Shown here: one piece after another, positions 42,383-53,349 of the stretch | Position numbering within the stretch: the stretch's first letter is position 1 | Layout of the letters: every line of letters begins with the position of its first letter | Assembly: GCA_027491215.1 (NCBI GenBank) | Contig: JAIXWP010000070.1 | Location: 36,713-100,712, forward strand | Reading direction: 5' to 3' | Length of the DNA stretch: 64,000 nucleotides | DNA from: Flavobacteriales bacterium | GTDB taxonomy: Bacteria; Bacteroidota; Bacteroidia; Flavobacteriales_D; Sanyastnellaceae | The notes under the pieces: generated by a model | The model's input: the letters and a program-made list of their open reading frames with translations, nothing else | Databases searched by the model: none | What the model was told of the DNA's origin: nothing | Program-made: the position numbers and the translations under genes

Positions 42383-44734
42383 TTATCGATTCTCGATAAT
42401 CAATCGTTGTGTTGTGTGTTCGCCCTTAGATTCAAATACTATTGTGTAAACACCTGCTGCTAGTTGCTTGTCAACAAGCATAGGAGTATTCAACTCTGCA
42501 TCCACTTGTACTTGATTTGTATAAACCAATTTCCCCATCATATCAAACATGCTCACGTGCAGCATCGTTTGCTCGTCTGAATTTACAAGAAGATTCAAGT
42601 CTGATCCATTCGCAGGGTTTGGATATACACTCGCTGTGTAAGATATCTCAGTAGTGATCTCTTCACGGCTCACAGCTGGTTCGTCCATCAAATTGTTTGT
42701 AATTGTAAAGAATGAACTTGTACCTGCCACTCGAACGCACACAGCTGGTCCCCATGGGCCTGAATAATCATAGGTGAAGATTGGACGAATTCTAACATCG
42801 TAAAATGCTCCGTTCTGTGCTTGTGGAACTTGAGCAAATCTGAAAAATCTGCTCGCTGTCATACTTTGTAGTGTAAACGGCGCTTGTATTCCATTCTGAT
42901 TTGTAAATTGAATTTCATAACCGATTGCAGTGCAAACACGCGGATTAAATGATATCCAAACATTTCTTGGAACTGCCCCATAGCTCGAACAGCTAAAATT
43001 CGAATTCACGCTTACTGCTGGAGGATTTCCTATTGTCAAGGTGCATCCCGCCAACGGTGGGACAGTCAACATTTCTTCTTGACCTAGTGAATTTGGAAGA
43101 AGGAAAATAGCTTCAATTTCCAAATTGTAAGAACCTCCATATTCTATTCCTTGAACACTCTCTAACGGAATGTTGGTTGAACCAAAGCTTTGATAGTTGT
43201 TTACCTCGCTGGTTGCATTATTTGTAAAAATAAAATTGTAGTTTGATGTACCCGCATGCGGCGCTTTCAAGACAGAGCATACAGCATATGGGCCAAGGTT
43301 TGTAGGACAACCAGATCTTCTCAAGAACTGGCTATTAATTGTAAATGAACCAGTACCCAATGCACTATTGTAGTTTCGAACTCCTATGTAATAAACTTCA
43401 CCAGCAGTCAAGTCATCTGTATTAAATCGCTCACCTCCTATTCCGCTTACCAAGTTTACACTTGTTACTGAGTGATAGGAAGCATCCACTAATTCAATGA
43501 TTGCATCGAAAGCCGAAGTAGTAACTTGGAATGTTGCGCCATTGGTTGGAGCAGTAAATCTGAACCAAATATCTTCCCCCGTTAAGTCTGCACTCTGCGT
43601 TATTTGAGTCGATGTTGCACCAACGAGAGTTCCTGCAGTATTTGCATTCAAAGGAAATGCTCCCAAAGTGATTGGACGAGCAGTCCAAGGGTTATCGTAA
43701 GCTACACATGGCCCGTCGATACATGATCCGTCATCGATAAATGCAAATGGATTGTAAGTGCATGCGTCTGGATCTGTGCAACCAAAACAGAATCCGCCAC
43801 CGATAGAAAAATAAGTTGATGTGAAAGAAATACCATCACCTGAAATATTTCCAGTGTCGGTGCCATTAATAGTCCATTCCACTTCTTCAGGATATCCCGA
43901 CCCCTGCACGCTGAAATAATAACATCCATCTGGAAGACACAGACTTTGCAGTTCATAAGAAAGCGGATATCCAAGAGTCCCAGACATTACTAATGTCATT
44001 GCTTCATCTCTAATTTCATATGTACCATCATCCCATCCATCCCCTACATAGTCAACAAGTTCAAGAGTTAGACAATTTTCTGTACAGCATGAAGCGTCAT
44101 CGATCGTTGCTTCTGCCTTGTAATTACAAGCAAGCACGTTCGTGCAGCCAATACAAGTTGTATAGTCACATGAGCCATCATTGCATGTTGCGTTTGAATC
44201 ATAATTACAAGCCAAGGGATCATTGCAGCCAAGTTGACCAGGGCCTAACAAGAAATGTACATCACGCTGATATGCCTCAAATGTTGGATTATTTGGGAAA
44301 ATTCCTGATTCAATCACTGTACTTGTATTCAAGTAAGTTACCGTAAATGTGCCGTCATCCCAGCCATCGCCATATGCATCGTATAATTCGATGACATAAC
44401 AGCCATCAGAAAGACATACAATATTCGATGAAGGTGCTGCGTCGGAATACAATCCAAAGATTTCGGTACCATTATCATCTTTCAATGAATAGGCAACCTC
44501 ACCAGGAAAGTCGCAATCTGAGATTTCAATCTGTATACAATTATTATAGCAACAAGAGCCATCATTGAAAGATGCTGATGGGTCATAGTTGCACGCACTC
44601 ATATCTGTACAGCCTCCATTTAAATAGGAGTTTGATTGATCATTTCTTGCTTCCCAAGAAAACTGAAACAAGCTAGAAGCTTGTGCATTCAAGGAAATAA
44701 GAAGAATAATTATAGGGGTAATCAAGCACTTCAT
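42383..44734 (-). CDS. Large secreted Cys-rich modular protein with T9SS type A C-terminal domain
   Basis: Four GCTDxxACNYxxxAxxxDGSC-type repeats, two GDGWDDGT... modules, C-terminus SVYPNPANGSDLNLLVNSDEQTMLHVSMFDMMGKLVYTNQVQVDAELNTPMLVDKQLAAGVYTIVFESKGEHTTQRLIIENR. Start refined from 44806. Confidence 0.85.
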   Translation of the reverse strand: MKCLITPIIILLISLNAQASSLFQFSWEARNDQSNSYLNGGCTDMSACNYDPSASFNDGSCCYNNCIQIEISDCDFPGEVAYSLKDDNGTEIFGLYSDAAPSSNIVCLSDGCYVIELYDAYGDGWDDGTFTVTYLNTSTVIESGIFPNNPTFEAYQRDVHFLLGPGQLGCNDPLACNYDSNATCNDGSCDYTTCIGCTNVLACNYKAEATIDDASCCTENCLTLELVDYVGDGWDDGTYEIRDEAMTLVMSGTLGYPLSYELQSLCLPDGCYYFSVQGSGYPEEVEWTINGTDTGNISGDGISFTSTYFSIGGGFCFGCTDPDACTYNPFAFIDDGSCIDGPCVAYDNPWTARPITLGAFPLNANTAGTLVGATSTQITQSADLTGEDIWFRFTAPTNGATFQVTTSAFDAIIELVDASYHSVTSVNLVSGIGGERFNTDDLTAGEVYYIGVRNYNSALGTGSFTINSQFLRRSGCPTNLGPYAVCSVLKAPHAGTSNYNFIFTNNATSEVNNYQSFGSTNIPLESVQGIEYGGSYNLEIEAIFLLPNSLGQEEMLTVPPLAGCTLTIGNPPAVSVNSNFSCSSYGAVPRNVWISFNPRVCTAIGYEIQFTNQNGIQAPFTLQSMTASRFFRFAQVPQAQNGAFYDVRIRPIFTYDYSGPWGPAVCVRVAGTSSFFTITNNLMDEPAVSREEITTEISYTASVYPNPANGSDLNLLVNSDEQTMLHVSMFDMMGKLVYTNQVQVDAELNTPMLVDKQLAAGVYTIVFESKGEHTTQRLIIENR

Positions 44735-44780
44735 GTCACTCTTTTTAAGGGTATGTGACATTGATACGTATAGAAACGAA

Positions 44781-44818
44781 AAAAGGTTATGCCATTTGCA
44801 TGACATAACCTTTTTTTT
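44781..44818 (-). terminator. Intrinsic terminator downstream of 1322-aa repeat protein gene
   Basis: AAAAGGTTATG...CATAACCTTTTTTTT inverted repeat with A/T runs on both sides. Confidence 0.8.
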
Positions 44819-44835
44819 ACTGTTTATACCTGATT

Positions 44836-47800
44836 TTAACAGTTCGAACCGAAAGCTCCTAGAAGCTGAATCAAGTCAGCCACACCGATGATACCATCGT
44901 TGTTAAGGTCTTCTGGGCAAGTGTCATCAACAGCGTTGATGATACATGAACCGTCATCGATTAAAGCTGCTGGATCGAAGTTCTCTGCTTGAGAGTACGT
45001 ACATCCTTGGCAAGAATCGTATTCACAAAGTGTACAATCGCTGAATCCAGCGTTTGCATCATAGTTACAAGCTAATGGCTCCATACAACCTGGAGTACAG
45101 TTACCTGAACCAGTGCTGAATTGAACACCTGCAGCGCTTACGCCACCTGTGATAATACCATTGTTTGTTCCAGTAAGGATATAGCTAACCTCACCTGGGA
45201 ATGTTCCACCACCTACAGTAATTCTGTAGCAACCGTCTGGCAAGCAGAAAGTAGCCGTTGCAGTAGAACCACCAGCTGGTACTGTACCCGTGCCAACAAT
45301 AGCACCAGTTGACTCGTCAGTGATTACAGCAGTGTTACCGTTCCAACCATCTCCGAATGAATCGTTCATGATAAGAGTAATACAGTTATCATAGCAGCAT
45401 TCAACTGGGTTAGAAATAGTAGCGTTTGGATCGAAGTTACATGCAGTATTGTCTGTACAACCAGCACAAGAATCGAATTCGCAAGAACCGTCATCGTCTG
45501 TTGCTGCTGGATCGAAGTTACAAGCACCAGCGTCAGTACATCCGCAAACACCAGCACCTACAGTGAATCCAAGAGTTTCAGCTTCACCAGCGATGATCAC
45601 GTTTCCGTTTGCATCTTCCAATGACCAAGAAATTTCAGCATCCCAGTCTCCACCACCTACAGTGATATTGTAGCAACCATCTTCTAGACAGAATACATCA
45701 AATCCAGTTTCTGGACCCACGAAGTTGTTTGCATCAACAGAACACTGAGCATCATCGATAGAGCCAGTAGCAACGATGTTGCCTGCAAGGTCTTCGATAG
45801 CGTATGTAGCATCGTTCCATCCGTCACCGAATTCATCGTTCATATTCATAATAACAGCGATACCATTTGTACAAGTAACGCAAGAGAAGAATTCGCAAGA
45901 AGCATCATCCACGTTAGCTACATCATTGTAGTTACAAGCACATGGATCTGTACAACCTTGAACAACTGGAGAACACTGGAAGTCGATAGAGAAAGCTCCA
46001 TCAAATAGATCATCTTGGAAGTCACCATTTGTATCAGCTGCACCTGCAGTAATGTACACATAATAGTTAGTACCAACCGTAGAAATGAATTCTACTACTG
46101 CATCATCTCCAGAGAAGAATCCACAACCAGCATCTGTAGCATCGTCATCAGCAGATACAACGCAAGTATATGGTCCACCGCAAGCAGCAGCAGATAATAC
46201 CTCTATACGTGTATCGATAGCAGATCCGCAAGTGCTAATAGTGTGGAATTGGCCATCACCAACGAAAGTGTACCACACACCGTTATCACCGTTAGAAACA
46301 CCACAAGCTGTTGGAGCACCAGTAGCAGTTGAAAGTGCAGTAGTACCAGCGATAACCTCGTTGCAGTTCAATGTGAACGCACTAGCGCAAAGGTCGTTTG
46401 CTGGAGGTCCATCATAAGCACATGATCCATCTTCAACAGTTGCATCTGGGTTGTAGTTGCTCGCGAATGGGTCAGTACATCCAACGTAAATTAGATCTGC
46501 CGTGAAAGTATAGTCACCGCAATCTGCTGGAGCATTAGTATAAACTAAGAAATAGTATTGTGTATTTTGAGTAACAGCGATGTTTGCTTCGTACAAGCTA
46601 CCAGCGCATGTTCCAGTTACTGGACCACAAACAGCTACTACGTCTAGATCACCGCAGCTAGCTGTTGGTGAAGAGTAAACGATAAGACCTGCGTTAGTAC
46701 CAGAAACGTTTGTAAGGTTAAAGTCAAAGCTATCGAAATCAGCTGAGTTCATTGAGTACCAAACACCGTATCCGCTAGCGAAAGGATTCACTGCAGCGAT
46801 ATCATCAGGGTTAGTACAGCAAAGTGAACCACCTACTTGAGCTCCATCTGGAAGTGGCAGAGCTTGTGCGCATGCATCATTGAATGGCGCACCACCGCAA
46901 GCGATACATTCCATTGTAAGATCGAAATCAACACCTACACCAACACCGAACTCAGATACTAACACATAGTACTGAACAGCAGGCTGAGATGTAAATAGAA
47001 CTGAAGAAGCGAAACCAGCACAGTTTGGATCATCATCATTAGCTGCTACGCAAACAAGAGCGTTGCAAGTACCAGCGAATACTTGAAGTTTTGTATCAAC
47101 TGCAGAGGCACAAGTAGAAAGGCTGATTTGGTCGCCAGTTCCGATGAATGTATACCATACACCACCAGAAGTTTGAGCGATACCAAGACAGTTTGGAACA
47201 CCGTCAGTGTTAGAGAAAGTAGTAGTACCACTTACAGTTACACCACAACCGATTGCTACAGCCGCAGCGCAACCATCGTTTGCAGGAGGACATTCGCAAG
47301 AACCGTCATCTTCAGAAGCTTGTGGATTGTAGTTATTACATCCTGGGTCAGTACAACCTGGGATCGTACAACCTGTAGCACCTGCCCAAGCGAAAGCTTG
47401 ACCAGAACCGTCTGGGTCAGCACCACTAGCGATAATGGTTCCATCACCTGTAGTGATACTCCAATCGATTTCTAATGGGAAACTACCAGGAGTTACTGTT
47501 AAAGTGTAGCAACCAGCAGGTAAGCAAAGCGCATCAGAACCTTCAGAAAGTCCATCACCTACTTCAGCAGTGTTCAAACCTCCTTGTGCAACGATGTTAC
47601 CAGCGTCGTCAGTCAAGAAGTATAAAGCACCATTCCATCCGTCACCGAATGTATCGAACATATTAATAACTGCTACTTGCTCGCCTGGAGCACAGTAGAT
47701 ACAAGAAGCGTTGTCGATTGTAGCATTTGGATCGTAGTTCGTAGCCAATGGATCAAGACATCCTGCGATACAAACTTCACCACCAACACCGAATACTTCG

Positions 47801-48804
47801 TTGTTAGCAGGAGCACCACCATCAAGCACTGTACCTTCAGCAGTTACAACTTCCCAAGAAACTTCAGCTGGGAAGCCACCTGCAGTTACTGTGATAAAGT
47901 AACAACCTTGATCAGCACAGAATTCAATTGAATTGAAATCCAAACCAGCACCGATTGTTCCAGTAGCTACAGTATTTCCACTTGCATCTACAATGGTTGC
48001 AACAGCACCGTTCCATCCGTCACCGAATGAATCGAACATATTGAATGTAACAATATTTGAGAAGCAGCAAGAACCATCATCACAACCCGCAGTTGGATCG
48101 TAGTTGATAGCGCCTGAGTTTGTACAACCAGGGAACACACAAGAGCCGTCATTTGCGTTTGCGCTTGGGTTGAAATTACATGCAGTAGCATCAGTACAAC
48201 CTGTAAGAGGAGCTGAGAACGTAATGCTCCATCCGCCTGAAACGGAACCTGCATCACCTGCAACGTCATCTTGAATGAACAATGACCAGTTTCCGTTTGC
48301 AGCATCGCCGCCAAAAACAGAAGCAAAAGTCGCAACTCCCGCAGGAGCAGGATTATTGATTGGACCTACATAGCCTGTAAATACATCACCAGCACCGATG
48401 TTTGATGGCTTATATGTACCACCGAGTTGTGTAGCTGCCGCAGTCATGTTTGCAGCACCAAAATCACCAAAAACAAAAGTTTGATTTGTGAAAGCAGAAC
48501 CTGTTGGCAACCCAACATCTGACATAAGCACTAGGGTTTCACCATTTGGTGCTAATAACATCACATCAATGTCATCTTGCCAAGTGTGGCTCATCCCATT
48601 AAGTGTAACAGATACGATACTAATGGCAGCTGGGCCACCTGTTACATTGATTACTGAAGGGCTCGGCGTAGCGGCACCTACAGCATTGATCGTAATTGCT
48701 GCTGGATTACTATACGTCTGCGCAAACGCAGTGGAAGCGAAAAGCCCACAGCAGACAGTAAGAATCGAAGCAATCACCGAAAGCTTGGTAAACTTTTGGA
48801 TCAT
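44836..48804 (-). CDS. 1322-aa secreted modular protein: P-domain-like N-terminus, ten GCTDxxAxNYxxxAxxDDGSC repeats, four GDGWNGA modules, dockerin-like C-terminal half-repeat
   Basis: Signal peptide; N-terminal proprotein-convertase P-domain-like segment (ISIVSVTLNGMSHTWQDDIDVMLLAPNGETLVLMSDVG...NGNWSLFIQDDVAGDAGSVSGGWSITF); C-terminus CPEDLNNDGIIGVADLIQLLGAFGSNC. Confidence 0.85.
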   Translation of the reverse strand: MIQKFTKLSVIASILTVCCGLFASTAFAQTYSNPAAITINAVGAATPSPSVINVTGGPAAISIVSVTLNGMSHTWQDDIDVMLLAPNGETLVLMSDVGLPTGSAFTNQTFVFGDFGAANMTAAATQLGGTYKPSNIGAGDVFTGYVGPINNPAPAGVATFASVFGGDAANGNWSLFIQDDVAGDAGSVSGGWSITFSAPLTGCTDATACNFNPSANANDGSCVFPGCTNSGAINYDPTAGCDDGSCCFSNIVTFNMFDSFGDGWNGAVATIVDASGNTVATGTIGAGLDFNSIEFCADQGCYFITVTAGGFPAEVSWEVVTAEGTVLDGGAPANNEVFGVGGEVCIAGCLDPLATNYDPNATIDNASCIYCAPGEQVAVINMFDTFGDGWNGALYFLTDDAGNIVAQGGLNTAEVGDGLSEGSDALCLPAGCYTLTVTPGSFPLEIDWSITTGDGTIIASGADPDGSGQAFAWAGATGCTIPGCTDPGCNNYNPQASEDDGSCECPPANDGCAAAVAIGCGVTVSGTTTFSNTDGVPNCLGIAQTSGGVWYTFIGTGDQISLSTCASAVDTKLQVFAGTCNALVCVAANDDDPNCAGFASSVLFTSQPAVQYYVLVSEFGVGVGVDFDLTMECIACGGAPFNDACAQALPLPDGAQVGGSLCCTNPDDIAAVNPFASGYGVWYSMNSADFDSFDFNLTNVSGTNAGLIVYSSPTASCGDLDVVAVCGPVTGTCAGSLYEANIAVTQNTQYYFLVYTNAPADCGDYTFTADLIYVGCTDPFASNYNPDATVEDGSCAYDGPPANDLCASAFTLNCNEVIAGTTALSTATGAPTACGVSNGDNGVWYTFVGDGQFHTISTCGSAIDTRIEVLSAAACGGPYTCVVSADDDATDAGCGFFSGDDAVVEFISTVGTNYYVYITAGAADTNGDFQDDLFDGAFSIDFQCSPVVQGCTDPCACNYNDVANVDDASCEFFSCVTCTNGIAVIMNMNDEFGDGWNDATYAIEDLAGNIVATGSIDDAQCSVDANNFVGPETGFDVFCLEDGCYNITVGGGDWDAEISWSLEDANGNVIIAGEAETLGFTVGAGVCGCTDAGACNFDPAATDDDGSCEFDSCAGCTDNTACNFDPNATISNPVECCYDNCITLIMNDSFGDGWNGNTAVITDESTGAIVGTGTVPAGGSTATATFCLPDGCYRITVGGGTFPGEVSYILTGTNNGIITGGVSAAGVQFSTGSGNCTPGCMEPLACNYDANAGFSDCTLCEYDSCQGCTYSQAENFDPAALIDDGSCIINAVDDTCPEDLNNDGIIGVADLIQLLGAFGSNC

Positions 48805-49030: not shown

Positions 49031-49519
49031 CTAACTTCTTCCCCACATTTCAGCATGCCAACTTTTTGCAAATGAAACGCGCCATCTCTCTTTAAACTCA
49101 GCGATATTTTTCACCAAGTTGTCATAAACCACAATATCATCTCCAATCAAGTTGGCCTTTCTCATTGCCCAAAATTGATGCAATGGGGTATCTTTTAATT
49201 CCCCATCGATTTCATACATCACTTGCATTCGATTGAAAAAATCCACATTGATCTCTTCTCCTATTTTTTGAAAAAAGTGTACAGATTTATCGATGCTACA
49301 GCCACTCGCAAGTGCTTTTTCCTCATCCACAGCCAAAACCACAAATCGGCTTGAGATGATTTCGAAGCCTGCGTAAAGTGAAGCACCGTGTGCATTCCAA
49401 CCTTCGATGAATTGACTCAGTGCATTTGATATAGCAACTATTTCCTGTTCTGATAAAAATCGATTTGCTTGATACACCCATACCCGAGAGTGCTCTGCCA
49501 AATGTTGAATAGATCTCAT
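49031..49519 (-). CDS. Conserved protein of unknown function, fourth gene of XrtF operon
   Basis: MRSIQHLAEHSRVWVYQANRFLSEQEIVAISNALSQFIEGWNAHGASLYAGFEIISSRFVVLAVDEEKALASGCSIDKSVHFFQKIGEEINVDFFNRMQVMY; ATGA overlap with preceding gene. No nucleotide-binding motif seen. Confidence 0.75.
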   Translation of the reverse strand: MRSIQHLAEHSRVWVYQANRFLSEQEIVAISNALSQFIEGWNAHGASLYAGFEIISSRFVVLAVDEEKALASGCSIDKSVHFFQKIGEEINVDFFNRMQVMYEIDGELKDTPLHQFWAMRKANLIGDDIVVYDNLVKNIAEFKERWRVSFAKSWHAEMWGRS

Positions 49520-50046
49520 TTTTTCGATTGTTGAATATATAATTGCCATGCTGCCCAGTTCATCATTGCAGGAACTGGAGACTGCAGGGCACCCACCATT
49601 TTTCTACTTATATTATAAAACAAGTCCATGCTTCCGAATGCATAGCCCAATCCATAGATAAAAAAGGCCGACCCGAAAGATATGAAATAGGTTGAGAGAA
49701 GCCATTTGTTCATTCGCGCATCTTTGATCAACCAGCTTAGTGCTTTTCTATTCAGCAAAAAGAAAATGACCACGAACACTATAGTCAACAACCATTTAAG
49801 CGCCTTCAGTTGACCTAAACTCAGAAGCTGCAAAGCATTAATCGGAGTGTGACTGTGATAATAATCAAACGGATTATTTCTCTTTGAATCGGCCAATGCC
49901 GTAATTCTTTCGTCATACCCTTTATCGAAGAATCCCTCAATGAGGCTTCCCTGCTCAATGACATAGTTGACATTTACTTTTATCAGTTCTTGAAAAAACC
50001 CAAGAATGACAAAGGCTATTACCAGTACCAACCATTTAATTTTCAT
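49516..50046 (-). CDS. Exosortase F system-associated membrane protein
   Basis: MKIKWLVLVIAFVILGFFQELIKVNVNYVIEQGSLIEGFFDKGYDERITALADSKRNNPFDYYHSHTPINALQLLSLGQLKALKWLLTIVFVVIFFLLNRKAL; multi-TM and directly follows an XrtF-like gene, matching the known neighbour family. Start refined from 50115. Confidence 0.82.
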   Translation of the reverse strand: MKIKWLVLVIAFVILGFFQELIKVNVNYVIEQGSLIEGFFDKGYDERITALADSKRNNPFDYYHSHTPINALQLLSLGQLKALKWLLTIVFVVIFFLLNRKALSWLIKDARMNKWLLSTYFISFGSAFFIYGLGYAFGSMDLFYNISRKMVGALQSPVPAMMNWAAWQLYIQQSKK

Positions 50047-50575
50047 TCGCAACCTTTGGTTTTGAAAACTTCGTGATCCAAATCCACCAGAGCCCGAAGA
50101 CGATCGCGTAAACAATCAACGTGAAGGTGTAATCATGATTAAAAGAAAACCAGTCTTGCTTGTGATACACTATCAAGGCTAAAGCTGAAACCCTCAAAAC
50201 ATTAATGAGGTGAATAAATACAAGACCTGCGGGCAAGAACCAGAGCTTGTGTTTGATAGGACCAGGATAGGAAATAATGAAAACTATAAACAACGCGAAA
50301 AGCACGATACCATCACATGGGGCGCCAATTGTAACTCCCTTTGAGCCGGCCACTCCAAAGTGAACACGGTACAAGCCATCAGCATAATCAGTAATTGGAT
50401 AACCAATTAATTTTAGAAAACCCTCACCGAGATTGACAAGACTATCAATCACCCATTCATCAATCAATGAGTGATCCTTTAGATAAAACTCATAAAAAAA
50501 GTACCAACTCAAATACAGAGTGGTACTTACTATTAGAAATCTTGAAAATGGATTCTTAAATAAAGAAGAAAGCAT
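50036..50575 (-). CDS. xrtF: Exosortase family protein XrtF
   Basis: Multi-TM protein with the expected Cys/Arg/His pattern: VTIGAPCDGIVLFALFIVFIISYPG..., FIHLINVLRVSALALIVYH, FSFNHDYTFTLIVYAIVFGLWWIW. Confidence 0.9.
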   Translation of the reverse strand: MLSSLFKNPFSRFLIVSTTLYLSWYFFYEFYLKDHSLIDEWVIDSLVNLGEGFLKLIGYPITDYADGLYRVHFGVAGSKGVTIGAPCDGIVLFALFIVFIISYPGPIKHKLWFLPAGLVFIHLINVLRVSALALIVYHKQDWFSFNHDYTFTLIVYAIVFGLWWIWITKFSKPKVANEN

Positions 50576-50796
50576 TACGAGCGTTTGCGATTCATGTCAT
50601 ACGCCTTCTTTCCGCCCAGCGCAAGACCAGCAGCGATAAGCAGACTTACGCCACCGTCAATTGGACAAACTGCGCCAAATGGCTCGCCGCAAGGTGGCGG
50701 ACCGAAACCTCCGGGAGGATCTGGTGGTTGTGCTGAAAACAATAAAGGCATGGCTAACAACAAAGCCATAACAAACACGCTGCGGAGTAATCTCAT
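50575..50796 (-). CDS. 73-aa mini-protein with signal peptide and PID-CTERM-type C-terminal sorting signal
   Basis: MRLLRSVFVMALLLAMPLLFSAQ | PPDPPGGFGPPPCGEPFGAVC | PIDGGVSLLIAAGLALGGKKAYDMNRKRS: signal peptide, short Pro/Cys linker, PIDGG + hydrophobic segment + basic tail. TAATG 1-bp overlap with xrtF. Confidence 0.85.
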   Translation of the reverse strand: MRLLRSVFVMALLLAMPLLFSAQPPDPPGGFGPPPCGEPFGAVCPIDGGVSLLIAAGLALGGKKAYDMNRKRS

Positions 50797-50928: not shown

Positions 50929-53349
50929 ATGTCCAAACAAAAAACGAGCTTCCTTGATGCCGACGATTTACGTCCCATAATTAAGTTCATTGGAAAAAAT
51001 TGGTATTTAATGGTCTCGTTTTGCTTGGTAGCATTCGTGATTGCCTATACCCTAAATTACCGTAAGCCTAACATTTACGGCGCTCGTACAGAGATTCTCT
51101 TAAAGTCCAATGAGTCTTACGACTACCAAACAAAAATCCTCAATAACGTTGGTTACTATTCTATCATCCAAGATTTGACTAACCAAAAAAGAATTTTGGT
51201 TTCACATGACATGATTGGAAAGGTCATCGACAAACTAGACTTTAATATTTCTTATTACCTCATAGGCCGACTGCGTGTAAATCAAGTAGATCGATTTGAG
51301 GCGATTGATATCGAATGCGATTGGAGAAGAATGGAACCAAGTCTTTACCGTGTTCCTTTTAACATCAAGGTGATTGACTTGAAAAAATACGAATTAAGCT
51401 TTGAGCACAGAGGAAAAAAGCAAACATATGTTTATGATTTCGACTCGTTATACTCGAACTTAAATTTCGCACTTCGTGTAAATATTTCTAAAAAGCTCGA
51501 TGAAACTTGGCTGAGAACTGTGCAAGATCAAAACTTCCAATTCAGAGTTGAGTCGCCAACGCTTCTTATTAATAAATACAAAGGAAGACTTGTTATTGAA
51601 AACACCGACTATAGCAGTATTCTAACATTATCGGTGCAAGATGAATTACCTTCTCGAGCTACTAGATTTCTTGATACGCTCGGAGCGGAATACATCAACT
51701 ATACTGTAGAGAGTCAATTCGCGATTAATAAAAATACCGAAAAATTCATCGACGCTCAGATTGATGAGGTGACGAAGATCATCGATTCTCTTGAATACAA
51801 GATTAATAACTTCAAGCAATCGAACGACATTCTTGACCTTGACAAAGAGCAAGCAGAGGCATTCAATCAATTAACCTTGGCAGATCAAGCTGAAACCACG
51901 CTAAAGCTTCGCCTAGAAGCTCTGAACAGCCTAGAAAAATATGTGTACGAAGAACGAAATACAAAAGCTATTCCTACACTAGCTTATCTTTCAGGTGAAG
52001 ACGACCTTTTGAGAAAAATGATTCTTGATTTGATTGATCTCAAAATCAAAAGATCAGAACTCTTACTCGATTATAAAGAAACAGATAGTCGTATCATGAA
52101 ACTCGACACGACCATTCAAACAACTGTAAACAATGTCTACCGCTACATCAATGACACACGTGTTTATGTTTCAAAAAATATACAAAAAGCAAAAGAGTCA
52201 GTTGCGGAATACGAAGCTGTTTTAAGAGACCTGCCTATTACAGAGCGTGAACTTTTCTCTTATCAGCGCAAGCTAACCGTTAACGAAAGCCTTTATAATT
52301 TCTTACTTGAGAAAAAAGCGAATACGGTAATTGCACGTGCAGGTCTCATTCCTCAAACATCAGTTATTGAAAAAGCTCGTTCAGTGGGTGTGGTTGGACC
52401 GGATAAAAAATCTGCTATTTATCTATCACTTGCAGTTGGGCTTTTATTAGCATTAATTACTGGATTCATTCGTTTGATATTCTTTGAAAGAATTGAGAAT
52501 ACAACAGAGTTAAAGTCATTAACAAAACTCCCTGTAATCGGAGGAATTCCAAACTATCAAGAGATCGACATCGAGCCACTTGCTCTTGTGAATAATCCTC
52601 GAGGCAACGTGTCAGAGGCATTTAGGTCTATTCGAACAAACCTGCAGTACATCCTTACTTCAGAAGGCACCAAAACGATCATGGTTTCGTCTCTTCACCC
52701 AAGTGAAGGTAAAACTTTTGTATCCGTCAACCTCGCGAGTGTGCTTGCAAAAGCTTCTAAGAAAGTGGTACTTCTCGACTTCGATATGCACAAGCCTAAA
52801 GTTCACAAAATTTTTGGCGTTGAAAACGTTAGTGGTATATCGTCTTACTTATCAGGCCGCACCGATTATGTGGATAGTTTGATTCCAACACAAATCGAAA
52901 ACCTCGATATTATTACAGCGGGCCCCGTGCCTCCTAACGCATCTGAGCTTGTGTTAAATGAACGCGTTCAAACACTGTTAGAGAGCCTAAAAAACACATA
53001 CGAATACATCATTGTCGATACACCGCCACTTTCACTCATCAGTGACTCATTGGTGCTTGTAAACAAAACGGACCTCGGGATATTCGTAATGAATACTGAG
53101 AAGGCAACCAAGCAAGGTGTGAACTTCTTGGATGAAATGTTGGTTCAAAATGGCATTTCCAATTGTTCATTGTTGTTGAACAACATCAAGCAAAAACGTT
53201 GGAAATACTATTACGGTAAATACGCATATAAGTACGGATATGGTTATGGTTACGGCTATGGCTATGGTTATGGCTACGGATATAACTACGGCGGATATGG
53301 CGACTTTGACAAAGGAGAAAAGAAAAAAGGAAAGCGTAAACCGAGATAA
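50929..53349 (+). CDS. Polysaccharide biosynthesis tyrosine autokinase (Wzc-like, Wzz + BY-kinase)
   Basis: Wzz-like TM regions; kinase NVSEAFRSIRTNLQYILTSEGTKTIMVSSLHPSEGKTFVSVNLASVLAKASKKVVLLDFDMHKPKVHKIFGV, YIIVDTPPLSLISDSLVL; C-terminal Tyr cluster. Start refined from 50905. Confidence 0.95.
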   Translation: MSKQKTSFLDADDLRPIIKFIGKNWYLMVSFCLVAFVIAYTLNYRKPNIYGARTEILLKSNESYDYQTKILNNVGYYSIIQDLTNQKRILVSHDMIGKVIDKLDFNISYYLIGRLRVNQVDRFEAIDIECDWRRMEPSLYRVPFNIKVIDLKKYELSFEHRGKKQTYVYDFDSLYSNLNFALRVNISKKLDETWLRTVQDQNFQFRVESPTLLINKYKGRLVIENTDYSSILTLSVQDELPSRATRFLDTLGAEYINYTVESQFAINKNTEKFIDAQIDEVTKIIDSLEYKINNFKQSNDILDLDKEQAEAFNQLTLADQAETTLKLRLEALNSLEKYVYEERNTKAIPTLAYLSGEDDLLRKMILDLIDLKIKRSELLLDYKETDSRIMKLDTTIQTTVNNVYRYINDTRVYVSKNIQKAKESVAEYEAVLRDLPITERELFSYQRKLTVNESLYNFLLEKKANTVIARAGLIPQTSVIEKARSVGVVGPDKKSAIYLSLAVGLLLALITGFIRLIFFERIENTTELKSLTKLPVIGGIPNYQEIDIEPLALVNNPRGNVSEAFRSIRTNLQYILTSEGTKTIMVSSLHPSEGKTFVSVNLASVLAKASKKVVLLDFDMHKPKVHKIFGVENVSGISSYLSGRTDYVDSLIPTQIENLDIITAGPVPPNASELVLNERVQTLLESLKNTYEYIIVDTPPLSLISDSLVLVNKTDLGIFVMNTEKATKQGVNFLDEMLVQNGISNCSLLLNNIKQKRWKYYYGKYAYKYGYGYGYGYGYGYGYGYNYGGYGDFDKGEKKKGKRKPR
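53232..53295 (+). repeat. In-frame hexameric (GGNTAY) tandem repeat encoding (GY)n in Wzc tail
   Basis: GGATATGGTTATGGTTACGGCTATGGCTATGGTTATGGCTACGGATATAACTACGGCGG. Confidence 0.9.

Follow-up and report, generated by a model that had tools for sequence, protein, structure and literature searches.

Genomes with the PEP-CTERM/EpsH (XrtA-type) sorting system typically encode many substrates each, and larger ones than the protein considered here. The substrates of this system carry a tripartite tail, and the system is linked to exopolysaccharide genes (PMC1569441; also PMC7468200). The MYXO-CTERM tail is likewise tripartite and the cysteines of its motif are required for cleavage (PMC11980579), but myxosortase belongs to an unrelated protease family. 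For the exosortase XrtF (TIGR04128; Fjoh_1448), a 2024 study of Flavobacterium johnsoniae left the substrates for future research (PMC10936215). The fourth system is XrtX/PID-CTERM of NCBIfam, which comprises exosortase X (NF046081), the PID-CTERM tail (NF046080) and an associated membrane protein (NF046082).

The operon described here, located in a window of 64,000 nucleotides (the whole stretch of DNA that was analysed) from a Flavobacteriales bacterium, resembles the XrtX/PID-CTERM system in that the enzyme and the substrate tail both score above the curated cut-offs and that a gene for the probable associated membrane protein is adjacent. It differs in that the substrate, a mini-protein of 73 aa, is encoded within the exosortase operon, is present in a single copy and contains a Cys pair, and in that the associated protein scores below the NF046082 cut-off. 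The motif, transmembrane segment and basic tail as well as the link to exopolysaccharide genes are shared with PEP-CTERM/EpsH, but here there is a single substrate without cargo. In MYXO-CTERM proteins the cysteines lie inside the motif, whereas the two cysteines of the mini-protein stand just before PIDGG. XrtF belongs to the same superfamily, is also followed directly by a membrane-protein gene and occurs in genomes that also hold PID-like mini-proteins; however, the enzyme of this operon falls below the TIGR04128 cut-off and into another clade, and no mini-gene adjoins xrtF at the XrtF-type loci read. On balance, the operon probably combines XrtX, a membrane partner and a dedicated, cargo-less substrate that would yield a peptide product.

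The operon, its exosortase and the mini-protein

The initial annotation had reported three minus-strand open reading frames, at the positions confirmed here and with a one-base overlap (TAATG) between the mini-ORF and the exosortase gene, and had confined the operon to 49516-50796. The three genes indeed belong together, but the span was too short, because a fourth gene (49031-49519) has to be included (Table 1). Given that the successive overlaps among the four genes are 1, 11 (exosortase and membrane-protein genes) and 4 nt, they are likely to be transcribed together, as a single transcript. The product of the fourth gene matched no family in Pfam or NCBIfam; the gene is kept at the same place, after the XrtX-associated gene, in 36 order-level loci.

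Table 1. Positions of the operon genes, the parts of the mini-protein and neighbouring genes in the window
Feature	Position	Strand	Basis
PID-CTERM mini-protein, 73 aa	50575..50796	minus	NF046080 match
Predicted signal peptide, residues 1-22, MRLLRSVFVMALLLAMPLLFSA	50731..50796	minus	sequence
Mature 22-residue peptide, QPPDPPGGFGPPPCGEPFGAVC, with Cys36 and Cys44	50665..50730	minus	Cys pair of relatives, pN/pS
PIDGG sorting motif, residues 45-49	50650..50664	minus	start of NF046080 match
Transmembrane segment and basic tail, VSLLIAAGLALGGKKAYDMNRKRS, with stop	50575..50649	minus	sequence, NF046080
Exosortase X (XrtX), 179 aa	50036..50575	minus	NF046081 match, invariant residues
Probable XrtX-associated membrane protein, 176 aa	49516..50046	minus	NF046082 homologue, below cut-off
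Fourth operon gene, 162 aa	49031..49519	minus	4-nt overlap with third gene
Wzc-type polysaccharide tyrosine autokinase, divergent	50929..53349	plus	TIGR01007, 173.8 bits (cut-off 108)
Cys-rich secreted protein, 1322 aa, P-domain and dockerin-like C-terminus	44836..48804	minus	PF01483; 79 Cys
Protein of 807 aa with T9SS type A sorting domain, 33 Cys	42383..44806	minus	

The mini-ORF encodes, in this order, a hydrophobic leader, QPPDPPGGFGPPPCGEPFGAVC, PIDGG, a hydrophobic stretch and KKAYDMNRKRS. Its tail (residues 45-67) matches the PID_CTERM model NF046080 with 37.3 bits (cut-off 26, E=1.7e-9), so that by curated score the protein is a member of this family, in support of the earlier proposal that it is a sorting substrate. 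A search of the entire genome (3.17 Mb) with the same model gave a single match over the cut-off, at the operon, and only one enzyme exceeded the general exosortase cut-off. The mini-ORF is accordingly the sole recognisable PID-CTERM gene of the genome, in line with the suggestion that it is the only local substrate. Cleavage of the signal peptide is predicted before Gln23, because the mature part of the relatives mostly starts with Q, and the PIDGG motif marks the expected region of exosortase cleavage.

The enzyme had been labelled XrtF, an identity that is ruled out: its score against TIGR04128 is 82.2 bits (cut-off 90), whereas that against exosortase X is 184.4 bits (cut-off 170), and in a tree of 137 exosortases the XrtF sequences form a clade of their own (support 100/96). 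In the same tree, most order-level XrtX sequences with adjacent Cys-containing mini-proteins group together, and the type with dispersed mini-proteins falls into a clade of 28 sequences (support 100/100). The Pfam family Exosortase_EpsH is matched barely above its cut-off. The Cys, Arg and His singled out in the initial annotation are present as Cys87, Arg128 and His147, are invariant across 16 relatives and are presumed to be the catalytic residues. The predicted structure of XrtX is mostly helical (mean pLDDT 90); no sequence match was found in the PDB with an exosortase profile, and comparison of the predicted fold with solved structures gave no significant match. The membrane protein, first described as a neighbour of XrtF, is present but probably belongs with XrtX: it scores 50.8 bits against NF046082, below the cut-off of 75, but a homologue of this type immediately follows xrtX in 97 of the 98 order-level loci.

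Conservation of the mini-ORF and selection on the mature peptide

XrtX (E<=1e-10) is present in 103 of the 196 genomes sampled in the order, and in 70 of these 103 a PID-CTERM match lies directly 5' of it (same strand, within 161 nt). Inspection of 98 order-level loci identified a mini-ORF directly 5' of xrtX in 76, often with an overlap of 1 or 4 nt; some of the further loci are at contig ends. Across the phylum (397 genomes), a PID-CTERM match (E<=0.01) was detected in 45 of the 47 genomes with XrtX over the cut-off vs 30 of the 350 others. The conserved position (76/98) together with this co-occurrence excludes chance, and the pairing of mini-ORF and exosortase that had been read from the one locus is retained in most relatives. 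Most of the relatives that have names are metagenome-assembled Flavobacteriales, among them Crocinitomicaceae and Cryomorphaceae. In one genus (g177), ahcY lies 5' of xrtX and the PID protein is encoded elsewhere in several members; at four loci of this genus it is a Cys-rich PID protein, away from xrtX and directly 3' of a gene with a dockerin-like end, which some of the PID genes overlap by 1 nt.

PID-CTERM frames are short throughout the phylum, with a median of 80 aa and one of the 150 listed exceeding 200 aa. Substrates without cargo are the rule among these frames, which is a new observation; literature searches for PID-CTERM or XrtX by those words found nothing, although the notes of the NCBIfam curators may mention small substrates.

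The mini-proteins of the order carry a Pro-rich spacer, bounded by two cysteines, immediately ahead of PIDGG. The 14-residue stretch that precedes the motif contains exactly two Cys in 67 of the 72 distinct mini-proteins, the last of them mostly 0-2 residues from the motif and the spacing usually 4 or 7, and neither Lys nor Arg was found before the motif in the 1296 positions of these 72 sequences. Four relatives have longer, Cys-rich mature parts. In 17 close pairs taken together, uncorrected pN/pS was highest in the signal peptide (0.55), followed by XrtX (0.22), the tail (0.14) and the mature part including PIDGG (0.10); the measure is a simple one, synonymous divergence is high, and a rule set the start of the mature part. 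Of the mini-protein segments and XrtX, constraint is strongest on the mature peptide, which had not been noted before. Such strong conservation of a short peptide makes a function at the peptide level, as envisaged in the initial annotation, credible.

Gene neighbourhoods and the mini-proteins of XrtF genomes

Upstream of the operon, on the opposite strand, a gene for a Wzc-type kinase is found in 45 of the 54 named loci. On the other side, 3' of the fourth gene, lies a gene whose product is rich in Cys, about 1300 aa long and dockerin-like at its end; it was found whole in 14 named loci of the family, and its representative here, the 1322-aa protein, is a possible surface partner. This protein contains repeated CTD..ACNY..DDGSC motifs and ends in the dockerin-like CPEDLNNDGIIGVADLIQLLGAFGSNC, an ending shared by about six proteins of the genome that is perhaps a sorting or docking tail of an undescribed kind. 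Further along the same strand is the 807-aa protein listed in Table 1.

In other families, the mini-proteins are often multicopy, dispersed and devoid of Cys. Among 70 loci from these families, a same-strand ORF lies directly upstream of the mini-gene in 61, and 53 of these 61 neighbours carry the sorting domain of type IX secretion (T9SS, PF18962), compared with 4 of 76 other neighbours (20 loci, ~12 kb each; Fisher p ~2e-24), the loci not being independent, as most come from a single family (f24) and 48 of the upstream pieces fall into one homologous cluster. These 48 pieces have a common homologous region ahead of the T9SS domain. Eight genomes contain 64-135 T9SS matches each, and the region ahead of the domain is found 6-14 times per genome, at positions that include most of the PID loci compared. 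The identity of the neighbours points to a link between exosortase sorting and type IX secretion, which is newly proposed here. Biofilm formation and colonisation by F. johnsoniae are impaired in similar ways when xrtF or T9SS genes are deleted (PMC10936215), and a study of T9SS speculates that the chemistry of linking sugars is common to the T9SS and PEP-CTERM systems (PMC7468200).

Mini-genes of the order are rarely preceded directly by a T9SS gene (two loci detected by HMM and three by eye), which leaves the partner uncertain here. A disulphide between the Cys pair and a Cys-rich partner was considered as a general rule but is not supported, given that the T9SS pieces beside Cys-pair mini-proteins in these five loci have 0-2 Cys each.

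Inspection of XrtF-type loci found no mini-gene beside xrtF. PID-like mini-proteins are encoded elsewhere in XrtF genomes and mostly score below the PID_CTERM cut-off. A profile built from 12 PID-like tails, two of them taken from the tested genomes themselves, matched 17 of the 17 XrtF genomes tested (E<0.005; best frames 69-115 aa) and, among genomes of the same class that gave no XrtX or XrtF match, 1 of 17, in a longer frame. These mini-proteins are new candidates for XrtF substrates. Such mini-proteins were observed in XrtF-bearing Flavobacteriaceae at loci L368, L372, L386 and L392-L409, and similar ones were seen by eye directly 3' of T9SS-type genes at five loci.

Processing and possible roles of the peptide

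Under the scenario favoured here, the mini-protein would be exported by Sec and have its signal peptide removed, which would expose an N-terminal Gln that could be converted to pyroglutamate, while the C-terminal helix would hold it in the inner membrane. XrtX (Cys87, Arg128, His147) would then cut at or near PIDGG, and the new C-terminus might be passed to a lipid or glycan acceptor, as proposed for exosortases. The cleavage by XrtX, the acceptor and the crossing of the outer membrane are all inferred, and a search of the literature found no processing of any PID-CTERM protein. The product would be a Pro/Gly-rich peptide of roughly 25 residues with the conserved Cys pair, for which the most likely job is that of an outer-surface anchor or linker beside exopolysaccharide and large exported surface proteins. 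This anchoring role is put forward tentatively, with somewhat less than even confidence.

The gene neighbourhoods suggest, but do not prove, a common function, and because of them a surface role involving polysaccharide or T9SS proteins is favoured over a soluble signal. A freed peptide acting as a signal or effector, rather than as an anchored structural piece, would suit a product that is short, strongly conserved, equipped with two Cys and free of Lys and Arg. However, a freely secreted peptide would need neither a transmembrane and basic tail nor a partner exosortase, and the neighbours are polysaccharide and surface-protein genes, not those of sensors or transporters; this reading appears unlikely. 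Slightly less likely still is that the mini-protein serves XrtX as a regulator or chaperone-like partner and that the true cargo has a tail missed by the model. The strict adjacency and overlap with xrtX would be expected of such a partner, but the tail of the mini-protein itself fits the sorting model, no second PID-CTERM protein over the cut-off was found in the genome, and the several mini-proteins that other families encode away from xrtX would be needless for a regulator.

A more serious contender, though still a doubtful one, is that one particular T9SS surface protein uses the processed mini-protein as its anchor or receptor, which would bring two sorting systems together on one product; the partner would be encoded directly 5' in other families and here might be the 1322-aa or the 807-aa protein. 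The excess of T9SS domains among upstream neighbours (53/61 vs 4/76 in controls), the coincidence of the region ahead of that domain (6-14 places per genome) with most PID loci compared, and the mutant phenotype common to xrtF and T9SS genes in F. johnsoniae (PMC10936215) all argue for it. Against this, the signal comes mostly from family f24, with 48 pieces in one cluster and hence fewer independent events, and Wzc, rather than T9SS, is the usual link in the present order. The broader proposal that the Bacteroidota exosortases XrtX and XrtF mainly produce short surface peptides from precursors without cargo, and that polysaccharide and T9SS surface proteins would be anchored or received by these peptides so that both systems are joined, is likewise speculative and could well prove wrong.

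The common picture of an exosortase substrate is that of a protein to which a sorting tail is attached, whereas the probable substrate in this operon is almost only tail. Selection is strongest on the peptide that would be left over, so that the chemistry of exosortases becomes testable on a very small product, and the PID-like mini-proteins provide candidate substrates for XrtF.
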